In this document: piece after piece, positions 23,833 through 64,000 of the stretch
Numbering within the stretch: position 1 is the stretch's first letter
How the letters are laid out: every line of letters begins with the position of its first letter
Assembly: GCA_947259575.1 (NCBI GenBank)
Contig: CAMYMU010000046.1
Coordinates: forward strand, 62,001 to 126,000
DNA length: 64,000 bases
Direction of reading: 5' to 3'
From: an uncultured Ectothiorhodospiraceae bacterium
Lineage (GTDB): Bacteria > Pseudomonadota > Gammaproteobacteria > UBA6429 > Thiohalophilaceae
Notes under the pieces: model-generated
What the model was told of the DNA's origin: nothing
Seen by the model: only the letters and a program-made list of their open reading frames with translations
Database searches by the model: none
Position numbers and translations under genes: made by a program

Positions 23833-23859
23833 GTATCGGACGGGGTAGGAAAAGATTTA
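23833..23859 (-). promoter_or_regulatory. Sigma-28 (FliA) promoter of the che operon
   Basis: On the minus strand: TAAA, exactly 15 bases, then TCCGATAC, against the consensus TAAA-N15-GCCGATAA (10 of 12 positions). It lies in the 217-base gap between fliA and cheY, with a start point about 100 bases before cheY. Confidence 0.75.
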
Positions 23860-23955: not shown

Positions 23956-24693
23956 TCAGGCATTTTCGCTGATACGATTCGACATCCGTGCTTGTAGACG
24001 AATGACCGCCTGTGAATGAATCTGGCTGACCCGGGATTCACTGACCCCCATAACCGCACCAATTTCACGGAGATTAAGCTCTTCATCATAGTACAACGCC
24101 ATCACCAGTCGCTCGCGCTCAGGTAAACTTGCCACAGCCTCAGAGATAATCTTTTGCATATCTTCTTTCTGTAAGCCATCAAGAATACCAGGGGTATTGT
24201 CGGAGATATTCTCGAGCAGAGACTCTTCACCCAGGCCCATATCTTCAACGCTCAGGACTTTGTGATAACTGTTGTCTTGCAGAATTTTGTAATAATCCTC
24301 GATCGGCATATCCAGGGTATCTGCAATTTCTGTATCACGTGCATCACGACCATGTTCATTTTCAATTTCACGTACCGCCTCAGCCACCATTCGGGCTTTA
24401 CGGTGGACTGAACGAGGTGCCCAGTCATTCTTACGGATTTCATCCAGCATCGAGCCTCGGATACGAATACCTGCATAGGTTTCAAAACTGGCTCCCTGGG
24501 TAGCATCGTAGTTGCGTGAGGCTTCAAGCAATCCGATCATACCCGCCTGAATCAGGTCTTCGAGCTGGACACTAGCAGGTAAACGATTAATCAAATGACA
24601 AGCGATCCGTTTCACTAACGACGCATGTTTTTCGACGAGTTCATTGTGACTCGTTAGATGTTGTTCAGATGCATACATAGCTACCCCGTTCAT
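23956..24693 (-). CDS. fliA: RNA polymerase sigma-28 factor FliA
   Basis: A 245-aa flagellar sigma factor. Region 2 has 'LEDLIQAGMIGLLEASRNYD' and 'IRIRGSMLDEIRKNDWAPRSV'. Region 4 has 'ERERLVMALYYDEELNLREIGAVMGVSESRVSQIHSQA'-type helix-turn-helix text. It overlaps flhG by four bases. Four good sigma-28 promoters in the window are its likely targets. The anti-sigma factor FlgM is not present here. Confidence 0.97.
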   Translation of the reverse strand: MNGVAMYASEQHLTSHNELVEKHASLVKRIACHLINRLPASVQLEDLIQAGMIGLLEASRNYDATQGASFETYAGIRIRGSMLDEIRKNDWAPRSVHRKARMVAEAVREIENEHGRDARDTEIADTLDMPIEDYYKILQDNSYHKVLSVEDMGLGEESLLENISDNTPGILDGLQKEDMQKIISEAVASLPERERLVMALYYDEELNLREIGAVMGVSESRVSQIHSQAVIRLQARMSNRISENA

Positions 24694-59954: not shown

Positions 59955-61457
59955 ATGTCGCAAAAACCACAGGAAAAAGATGTATGTAGGCCTCAGGACC
60001 TATCGGTATCGGCCGATAAGTGTGATGGACTTCTCACTTTATTGATGAATATGCGTGTTTTTAGTGGAATCATAGTTTTCTCGGTGGCACTGGTGTTTGT
60101 CCTCAATGCCTGTGCACCTCAGCGTTCTGTACTGCAGCAAGTACTCGCTGCCGGCGAACTGCATGTCCTGACTCGCAATAGTGGTACTACCTATTTTGAA
60201 GGCCCTCAGGGCCCATCAGGGCTCGAATATGAGCTGATGCGACGTTTTGCCGAAAAGCTCGGTGTCGAACTGAAAATTTCCGTCCCAGACAATCTAAACG
60301 ACATTTTGGAGCAAATTAGCGACGGTGAAGCGCACATTGCGGCAGCTGGTTTGACCATTACCGAACAGCGCAAACAGCAAGTTCGCTTCGCTCCTGCTTA
60401 TCAGACTATTACACAGCAAGTTGTCTATAACGTTAAAAATGCTAAGCCCCGCTCGATTAAACAACTGGATGGCAACTTCGAGGTCGTTTCTCTAAGCAGT
60501 CATGTGGAACAACTCAACCGTCTCAAAACTAAACACACTAAACTCGAGTGGATAGAAAATAGCGAAGCTGATAGCACTGAGCTACTTACTCTGGTGGCAG
60601 AGGAGCTCATTGATTATACGGTTGCTGACTCAAACGAGGTAACCTATAACAGACGCTATTATCCAAGGCTCAGAGTGGCTTTTGATATAACCGATCCACA
60701 GGGGCTTGCCTGGGCATTCCCGATTTCGGAAGATAACAGTCTGTATGACGCTGCCGTTGAATTTTTAAATGAACTCAAGGAATCTGGTGAGTTAGAGCGT
60801 CTCCTGAAACATAACTACCAGCATGTGCAAAACTACGATTACGCCGGCACTCACAGTTACCTGGCACAAATTCGTCGACGCCTGCCCACTTACCAGGAAA
60901 TGTTCCAGCAAGCGGCGGAGAAATATGACCTTGATTGGAAACTGTTGGCTTCACTGTCATATCAGGAATCACACTGGCGCCAAAATGCAGTTTCACCCAC
61001 TGGGGTACGCGGCATGATGATGCTAACCAATGCGACCGCGGATCACCTGGGTGTCGTCGACCGCACCGATCCCTATGAAAGCATCATGGGTGGCGCTCGT
61101 TATTTGCGTGCCCTCATTAATAAGGTACCGGCTCACATACCTGAACCTGATCGTGTTTGGATTGCTGTCGCCTCTTACAATGTTGGCTATGGTCATGTTG
61201 TTGATGCAAGAAAACTGGCGACCAAACGTGGCGACAACCCCGATAAGTGGGTCGACATAAAGGCTACACTGCCCTTACTCAGCAAACGTAAATGGTATAA
61301 ACAAACTCGTTATGGATATGCGCGCGGTTGGGAACCGGTTCGCTATGTAGAAAATATTCGTAGTTACTACGACATTCTTACCTGGCATCTGGAAAAAGAA
61401 CAACCACACCTACAGAACTCACGTCCTGTCCTGGCGTTTTCATCCAACATCCTTTAA
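59955..61457 (+). CDS. mltF: Membrane-bound lytic murein transglycosylase F
   Basis: An enzyme that cleaves the glycan strands of peptidoglycan at the outer membrane. The lipobox 'LNAC' identifies a lipoprotein. An SBP_bac_3-like domain (about 65-300 from this start) precedes a Slt-type lysozyme fold with the catalytic glutamate in 'SYQESHWRQNAVSPTGVRGMMMLT'. ATG 59955 has an AGG-type site upstream but adds 30 residues before the signal peptide; ATG 60045 gives a normal signal peptide but no good Shine-Dalgarno. The 3' end overlaps the convergent GGDEF gene by 18 bases. Confidence 0.93.
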   Translation: MSQKPQEKDVCRPQDLSVSADKCDGLLTLLMNMRVFSGIIVFSVALVFVLNACAPQRSVLQQVLAAGELHVLTRNSGTTYFEGPQGPSGLEYELMRRFAEKLGVELKISVPDNLNDILEQISDGEAHIAAAGLTITEQRKQQVRFAPAYQTITQQVVYNVKNAKPRSIKQLDGNFEVVSLSSHVEQLNRLKTKHTKLEWIENSEADSTELLTLVAEELIDYTVADSNEVTYNRRYYPRLRVAFDITDPQGLAWAFPISEDNSLYDAAVEFLNELKESGELERLLKHNYQHVQNYDYAGTHSYLAQIRRRLPTYQEMFQQAAEKYDLDWKLLASLSYQESHWRQNAVSPTGVRGMMMLTNATADHLGVVDRTDPYESIMGGARYLRALINKVPAHIPEPDRVWIAVASYNVGYGHVVDARKLATKRGDNPDKWVDIKATLPLLSKRKWYKQTRYGYARGWEPVRYVENIRSYYDILTWHLEKEQPHLQNSRPVLAFSSNIL

Positions 61458-62426
61458 CTCACCCATTTTCTCTTTTGAATAAATCGTTGTTTGGTTACGG
61501 CCATTCTCTTTAGAGTAATAAAGAGCCTGATCTGCCTCTTCCAGCCACTGTTTGTAATCTTTCGTGTCTTTATTCAATTCCGAAACGCCGATACTAATCT
61601 TGAATTCTATTTTGAGATCTTCATGTTGAACTGTGAGCGCTTCTATTCTTTTTCGCAAGCGTTCCGCTAGGATCATTGCATTGTCTGTTTTAGTATCAAC
61701 TAATAGAACCGTAAACTCTTCACCACCGTAGCGACCGGCGATATCCGTTTTACGAATCGTTCGGCGCAAGGTCTTTGAGGTCTGACGAATAACTTCATCC
61801 CCGGCCTGGTGTCCATAGGTATCATTCACATTTTTAAAATGATCAATATCAAAAATGATTAAGGTTATGGGTTGCTTTGTACGTTTGTATCGATCGAACT
61901 CTGCCTCTAAGCATTCCTCCCAATAGCCACGATTGTTCAATTGTGTCAGACGATCGGTACGGCTTAATTGCGCGAGTTCATCGTTGGCGGTCTCAAGTTG
62001 CTGTTTACCAACCGCTGCATCAGTAACATCATATATAACGATACCAATATTTTTAATCATTCCATTGGTACCCATAAGTGGCAGAAAAGTTATATTCTGA
62101 TACATAAAGGGTGAAGCACCGGTGATGGGACGATAATTTTTAAATTTAAATACGTAGGGGCGTTGTTCCCAGGTCGTAAAAGCACGGTTTGCCAATGTAT
62201 AAACAGATTCGACTTTACGCTCAAACCATTGTTGCGGTACTTCAGGAAACAGATCTAACAGTTTTTTTCCCATGACTGCATCTGCACGTTTACCGCTGCG
62301 ATTCTCCATGAAGCTATTCCATAGTTTAATTGTATAATTTCGGTCAATAACGATAATACCCACGTTAATAGAGTGCACGACCCCCATTAACCAGTGTAGT
62401 TCGTCAAGATCTGTATCGTCATTCAT
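61440..62426 (-). CDS. PAS-GGDEF diguanylate cyclase
   Basis: A 328-aa cytosolic enzyme predicted to make c-di-GMP. A PAS domain (about 10-135; 'VHSINVGIIVIDRNYTIKLWN') leads via a helix to the GGDEF domain. The active site reads G234-G-E-E-F238, and an inhibitory RxxD site lies at R225-D228, five residues before it. Metal-binding 'FDIDHFKNVNDTYGH' is intact. It begins two bases after the receiver-CheC gene and shares its sigma-28 promoter, so the two probably form one signalling unit. Confidence 0.93.
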   Translation of the reverse strand: MNDDTDLDELHWLMGVVHSINVGIIVIDRNYTIKLWNSFMENRSGKRADAVMGKKLLDLFPEVPQQWFERKVESVYTLANRAFTTWEQRPYVFKFKNYRPITGASPFMYQNITFLPLMGTNGMIKNIGIVIYDVTDAAVGKQQLETANDELAQLSRTDRLTQLNNRGYWEECLEAEFDRYKRTKQPITLIIFDIDHFKNVNDTYGHQAGDEVIRQTSKTLRRTIRKTDIAGRYGGEEFTVLLVDTKTDNAMILAERLRKRIEALTVQHEDLKIEFKISIGVSELNKDTKDYKQWLEEADQALYYSKENGRNQTTIYSKEKMGELKDVG

Positions 62427-62428
62427 AA

Positions 62429-63415
62429 CTATGCCGCAACATATGAGATTAGTTGGTTAAACCTGGGTATCGAATCTTCAGTGAAGAGTAATAACAGGTT
62501 CACGTGAACATCTTTATTTTCAATCGATATCTGCATATCGATTGCCAAGGTACTTTTCCAAAAATCATTTCCATTCTTTATAATATCTTCGCTCTTGGCA
62601 TGTCTCCCCAGGACCATGGGGTGACTCAGACTCATATTGATATCAAACTGTTCTGCTATCCCATTTATGCAGGCACCAATCAGAATATTCGACAGATCCA
62701 TCAATAATTCCATTTCGGCGGTATCATCCAACTCACCATCAAACTGGGTCATCTCTGCGATGTCTTGATAACTGGAGTCGGAAAAAACCAGCATGACCTC
62801 GCCTGCCAGACCGCCGCCAATAAAGCCTTGGCAAACGGCAGAAGTACTTTCATGTTCGGTTGCTTGATGCACGGCCATTTGCAACTCACTGACTTCGAGC
62901 ATACTGACATTGGGAATAGGCATGATCACGAAGGAATCCAGCACACTAGCAAGCAGTGCCGCAGCCTGCCCCATTGCAACGTTAGTAACTTCTCGATAAG
63001 CATCAAATAATTCCAGGTCCTGGGTATCATTTGCTGAATCTAATTGTTCATTATCGAGATCATATTCTTTAATGATGCCGCCCATATCAACGTTGTTGAC
63101 TGGCTTCTTAATAAAAGCCGCAGCCCCAAGACTCATCACACGCTCATTTGCCTCCGGCTGAATATCACCAGAAACGACGATAACTTTGATGTTCATTTTT
63201 TCATCATAGATATGCTGCAGGACACCATAGCCATCAAGAATAGGCATATTTAAATCAAGGAAAAGTACTTTGATTTTTCCTGTCTTGAGAATCTCGATCG
63301 CCTCTACACCATTATTGGCAAAACTCAACTCCGCATCGAAATCTTCAGGTAATGCGCGCATTAGCTGTTTTTGAGCAAAACTAGAGTCGTCGCATATGAG
63401 AACAGGGATGGCCAT
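62429..63415 (-). CDS. Response regulator with C-terminal CheC-type phosphatase domain
   Basis: A 328-aa protein. The receiver domain (1-118) has D9-D10, acceptor D54, S82 and K104. The second half (about 135-328) is CheC/CheX-like. The first phosphatase motif is D138-x3-E142-x2-N145 with P168 exactly 22 residues on. The second is E236-x3-D240-x2-N243 with P266, also at 22, but has Asp for the key Glu. At least one catalytic site is therefore intact. It may dephosphorylate CheY-P or its own receiver. The start ATG follows a sigma-28 promoter so closely that there is almost no leader and no Shine-Dalgarno. Confidence 0.9.
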   Translation of the reverse strand: MAIPVLICDDSSFAQKQLMRALPEDFDAELSFANNGVEAIEILKTGKIKVLFLDLNMPILDGYGVLQHIYDEKMNIKVIVVSGDIQPEANERVMSLGAAAFIKKPVNNVDMGGIIKEYDLDNEQLDSANDTQDLELFDAYREVTNVAMGQAAALLASVLDSFVIMPIPNVSMLEVSELQMAVHQATEHESTSAVCQGFIGGGLAGEVMLVFSDSSYQDIAEMTQFDGELDDTAEMELLMDLSNILIGACINGIAEQFDINMSLSHPMVLGRHAKSEDIIKNGNDFWKSTLAIDMQISIENKDVHVNLLLLFTEDSIPRFNQLISYVAA

Positions 63416-63423
63416 GCTAATTA

Positions 63424-63450
63424 CTATCGGCGATCCGCCTATTACATTTA
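63424..63450 (-). promoter_or_regulatory. Sigma-28 promoter of the receiver-CheC/GGDEF operon
   Basis: On the minus strand: TAAA, exactly 15 bases, GCCGATAG, matching 11 of 12 consensus positions. It is the best sigma-28 match that I found in the window. Only eight bases separate the -10 element from the ATG, so the transcript should be leaderless or nearly so. Confidence 0.85.
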
Positions 63451-63564
63451 GCGTTGGTGATGATAATTGGCTGGTAATTAGCTGAAAATGGACGGCTAGG
63501 ACAAAGACAGGGGGGGCCAGCTCTAAGCTGGTGAAATTATAGGCAAAATAAGTCTAGATCGGAC

Positions 63565-64000
<436 letters not shown>

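Follow-up and report, generated by a model that had tools for sequence, protein, structure and literature searches.

What kind of mRNA is made when a flagellar-type promoter ends only eight nucleotides before a start codon, and how could ribosomes begin on it? The question is raised by a site on the minus strand of the window (the whole 64-kb stretch of DNA analysed here). We consider it quite probable that a FliA (sigma-28) promoter drives a receiver-CheC and PAS-GGDEF gene pair from a start 2-4 nt before the ATG, yielding a functionally leaderless mRNA on which the GGDEF gene is translated by coupling. The features on which this reading is built are the following.

63447-63450, minus strand: TAAA, the sigma-28 -35 element (from the sequence)
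63432-63446, minus strand: 15-bp spacer, TGTAATAGGCGGATC (from the sequence)
63424-63431, minus strand: sigma-28 -10 octamer, GCCGATAG (from the sequence and ortholog identity)
63416-63423, minus strand: 8-nt gap from octamer to ATG, TAATTAGC (from the sequence and orthologs)
63413-63415, minus strand: ATG of the receiver-CheC/CheX gene (from the sequence)
62429-63415, minus strand: receiver (PF00072) and CheC/CheX-like (PF13690) protein, 328 aa (Pfam matches over cut-off)
61440-62426, minus strand: PAS-GGDEF diguanylate cyclase (GGEEF), the second gene (domain match and sequence)

The sequence, the start codon, the lack of a Shine-Dalgarno (SD) and the conserved spacing are seen directly. The minus strand reads TAAA-TGTAATAGGCGGATC-GCCGATAG-TAATTAGC-ATG, that is, a sigma-28-type promoter and then a start codon, within the letters ...cgcTAAAtgtaataggcggatcGCCGATAGtaattagcATGGCCATCCCTG. 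The site, TAAA-N15-GCCGATAG, agrees with the FliA-type core in 11 of 11 letters, and both the promoter at 63424-63450 and the eight bases that separate it from the ATG had been placed exactly by the sequence-only reading. The exact string TAAA-N15-GCCGATA has its sole match in the window here; the pattern ending in GCCGATAA has no match in the window, because this site ends in G. The ATG at 63415 is the first ATG, GTG or TTG downstream of an in-frame stop, none of these codons lying in frame between the two, so that the exclusion of earlier starts holds. A later start codon is implausible, since it would remove the first strand and acid pocket of the receiver (residues 5-10, VLICDD). No SD precedes the ATG: the anti-SD duplex energy is +0.3 kcal/mol, the fourth weakest pairing among 40 window genes (median -3.6 kcal/mol). 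The first 50 nt show nothing remarkable in their predicted RNA folding.

Where would transcription begin? For E. coli aer, mapping placed the sigma-28 +1 at a distance of 6 bp after the -10 octamer, CGA occupying positions -11 to -9 (PMC2859248). Applied here, this rule gives:

63418, minus strand: predicted transcription start, an A preceded by T, with the leader 5'-AGC-AUG

We thus infer a start about 3 nt before the ATG, with a range of about 0-4, in line with the 0-3 bases proposed earlier. In Salmonella, leaderless genes were defined by a start 0-6 nt before the AUG and no SD, and 33 such genes were counted (PMC3293720); the predicted 3-nt leader without SD would fit this definition. In Alteromonas, 10 leaderless transcripts were found among 1315 gene start sites, the median leader being 63 nt (PMC5864184). 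The observation made by the sequence-only reading is confirmed, while its interpretation is partly supported. Its gene would count as leaderless by the published definition, but the predicted leader is three nucleotides long and not necessarily absent; such a gene is indeed rare in a gammaproteobacterium, but the kind is already known from these two organisms. The suggested tie between its translation and a ribosome state is speculative.

Of 40 genomes from the same bacterial family (the family- and order-level sets are the same 40 genomes), 12 encode the protein, which is also widespread in Gammaproteobacteria. Alignment of the promoter-ATG spacing in relatives had been proposed as a check, and the gap is exactly 8 nt in five orthologs: those of every genome of the window's genus (four) and that of G019, from another genus. 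They group together as a single clade (SH-aLRT support 100%), and each begins with ATG. When they are anchored at the ATG, pairwise identity is 93% in the octamer, 36% in the gap, 32% in the spacer and 30% upstream. Since the octamer and the 8-nt length are kept in randomised surroundings, the motif and its distance to the ATG appear to be under selection. By the aer rule the predicted leaders are AGC, GUC, GUC, GGU and GCU; all five have a purine at the predicted +1 (A, G, G, G, G at -3), and the base before it is T, T, T, T, G (T at -4 in four of five). Two points against our main reading also come from this comparison: the spacer is 16 bp in the three congeners versus 15 bp in the window, and the -35 element, TAAA in the congeners (G001-G003), is TCAA in G019.

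Two further orthologs look similar (G008, with 9 nt and a poor -35; G197, with 7 nt and TTAA/GCCGACAC) but are placed elsewhere in the tree. In six other family members (G015, G034, G016, G027, G020, G005) and in G037, from a neighbouring family, the sigma-28-like sites lie farther off, at 44-84 nt upstream, and distant orthologs mostly have none near the start. The short arrangement is therefore not universal: as judged from these sequences, it is a lineage-specific state, other orthologs having putative long leaders or no sigma-28 site.

As to the proteins, the assignment as a receiver-CheC protein was correct by both Pfam matches. Receiver residues D9, D10, D54, S82 and K104, among them the phospho-acceptor Asp and the acid pocket, are invariant in 15 orthologs, as are E142 and N145 of an E-x-x-N phosphatase-type motif. 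The GGDEF gene starts 2 nt past the stop of the first gene in the window (2-3 nt in the short-gap clade) and has a very weak SD (-1.7 kcal/mol); given this closeness and the little SD, it is probably translationally coupled to the receiver-CheC gene. Our literature search for a studied receiver-CheC/GGDEF pair found none. A sigma factor that could read the promoter is encoded in the same window:

23956-24693, minus strand: fliA (sigma-28), FliA_WhiG match over the curated cut-off

This gene sits in a flagellar/chemotaxis cluster (flhF, cheY, cheZ, cheA, cheB, cheW). A second FliA-type sigma factor is encoded at G000:C1:162962-163621 of the same genome, also above the curated FliA_WhiG cut-off, and either of the two might read this promoter. 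The genome's CheY, CheZ, CheA, CheB and CheW are of the classical kind. A TAAA-N15-TCCGATAC site at window position 23859 (minus strand), which has one mismatch and precedes cheY (23738) by about 95 nt, is probably an ordinary sigma-28 promoter. The gene pair is plausibly a phospho-signalling/c-di-GMP module induced alongside late flagellar genes.

The mechanism that we propose joins these elements, and its start site, FliA dependence, leaderless initiation and coupling are what we infer. Sigma-28 RNA polymerase would start 2-4 nt ahead of the ATG, and the mRNA would have no space for an SD; it would be functionally leaderless because of where the start is placed. On leaderless mRNAs it is mainly the 70S ribosome that initiates at the 5'-terminal AUG, with aid from initiator tRNA and inhibition by excess IF3, and ppGpp has been reported as favourable (PMC9031893). 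Here, too, ribosomes, mostly 70S and led by initiator tRNA, would initiate on the 5'-terminal AUG. The diguanylate cyclase would be translated through coupling to the first gene, so that both proteins would hang on the leaderless start. The likely outcome would be a modest co-expression of the module with late flagellar genes; sRNAs and leader-binding regulators would find no target on an mRNA that lacks a leader.

Is this gene alone in its arrangement? A search of the family and the class for exact sigma-28 sites at 7-9 nt from an ATG yielded mostly chance ATGs without a proper ORF, and hence we did not accept short gaps at face value. Two apparent short gaps in the window's own genome (L018, L019, with GTG starts) were discounted, since these starts are probably intragenic or wrongly called. 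Among 60 strong sigma-28 sites sampled from 8 genomes (42 of 60 with a downstream ORF), a plausible ATG gap below 10 nt occurs only in a family of proteins of ~185 aa; the remainder are mostly 25-100 nt from the ATG. The short leader is thus gene-specific, an exception among sigma-28 genes. Near-perfect sigma-28 sites with gaps of 38-39 nt also precede two genes of the window's own genome (G000:C2 and C24; L002, L003), whose proteins resemble rhodaneses on visual inspection and have N-termini that look like signal peptides.

Gaps of 6-10 nt are kept in two other gene families that this bacterial family links to sigma-28 sites. One encodes a CRP-like regulator (cNMP_binding and Crp HTH; L232-L238), with gaps of 8 (G022), 9 (G008) and 10 nt (G019, G001, G002, G003, G007) and short-gap promoters that are nearly all strong. 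In the window's own genome the site at this gene (G000:C37:120619-120644) is 20 nt away from the first ATG in frame and 113 nt from the homologous ATG, both downstream of it; the reading frame there is extended upstream. The other encodes the ~185-aa protein (L262-L264, L352, L361 and relatives), found in several genera, which has no Pfam match and is predicted from its hydrophobic stretches to be membrane-bound. Its gaps are 7, 7 and 8 nt within a single genus (three genomes), 8 in G014 and 7 in G009, and about 6-7 elsewhere, with weaker octamers. One may speculate that the family has a small selected leaderless sigma-28 set (the receiver-CheC/GGDEF operon, the CRP-like regulator and the ~185-aa predicted membrane protein), which would make up a translational tier of its own within the flagellar regulon, with an output governed by ribosome state (IF3, initiator tRNA, ppGpp) and not by leader-binding regulators. 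We offer this tentatively and regard it as rather unlikely.

Other explanations of the locus have to be weighed against the leaderless one. A single match in the window might be chance, given that TAAAN14-16GCCGATA has 24 matches genome-wide versus 6 per genome for the reversed control pattern, so that about 25% of own-genome matches are expected to be false; it is the relatives that decide. The motif and the 8-nt gap are retained in five diverged genomes with randomised flanks, and the exact core has 0 matches across ten Markov-1 simulated windows. In our opinion, a mere chance resemblance is hardly credible. It would also be conceivable, though very improbable, that sigma-28 transcription begins on the AUG itself or slightly within it, so that some of the RNA could not be translated and the geometry would restrict expression. 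Start-site choice generally shifts by a few bases and the gap is short, but the conserved purine 3 nt before the ATG matches the distance measured for aer.

A more serious rival accepts the sigma-28 promoter as real and takes most of the protein to come from longer mRNAs by SD-independent initiation, the leaderless RNA being minor. Two upstream features are relevant to it:

63565-63999, minus strand: tadA, the upstream neighbour, on the same strand as the receiver-CheC gene, its 5' end outside the window
63536-63541, minus strand: TATAAT hexamer, 120 nt ahead of the ATG, a possible weak sigma-70 promoter that would give a leadered mRNA

The same interval, between tadA and the promoter, holds at about 63532-63518 (minus strand) a perfect hairpin, CCAGCT-TAG-AGCTGG, followed by a C run; it is not a standard terminator. 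Since tadA lies 149 nt upstream of the receiver-CheC ATG on the same strand, and a scan predicted no terminator in between, read-through from tadA, or transcription from the TATAAT at 63541-63536, could add a leadered mRNA lacking an SD. Moreover, many orthologs have neither an SD nor a nearby sigma-28 site. On the other side, the TATAAT has no good -35 and is absent from the promoter scan list, and longer mRNAs leave the constant 8-nt gap amid randomised sequence unexplained. We judge it unlikely that they are the main source of the protein.

If the leaderless reading is right, how new is it? Lambda cI and Tn1721 tetR are leaderless mRNAs of gammaproteobacterial phages and transposons, and leaderless mRNAs are often low-abundance regulators. 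Reports of them from gammaproteobacteria mostly concern isolated, scattered examples. At this locus the promoter-AUG distance is kept and the sequence is not, over two genera, and the same holds for no fewer than two more sigma-28-linked genes in the bacterial family. On that reading, a type of mRNA that is rare but already described would occur here in a sigma-28-linked form that is both new and conserved. We found no FliA-driven leaderless gene in the literature covered (openly licensed papers, apart from their supplements). Should the start be confirmed, nature would have supplied conserved genes on which to test how a motility regulon employs leaderless translation, and for what reason.

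With the known gammaproteobacterial leaderless mRNAs (Salmonella, PMC3293720; Alteromonas, PMC5864184) the locus shares the lack of an SD and would share an AUG 0-6 nt from the 5' end, which is here a predicted one; it differs in its sigma-28-type promoter and in a geometry kept across genera. With the E. coli FliA class 3 promoters of aer, tar and tsr (PMC4183435, PMC2859248) it has in common the TAAA-N15-GCCGATAA architecture and a gene for chemotaxis/motility signalling. In contrast to it, the majority of the sigma-28-linked genes that were sampled in this bacterial family have gaps of tens of nucleotides and space for an SD. Finally, the receiver-CheC/CheX proteins of Pseudomonas, Vibrio, Shewanella, Pseudoalteromonas and others are orthologous over their full length, with about 39-52% identity, but most of their genes have no sigma-28 site near the start.
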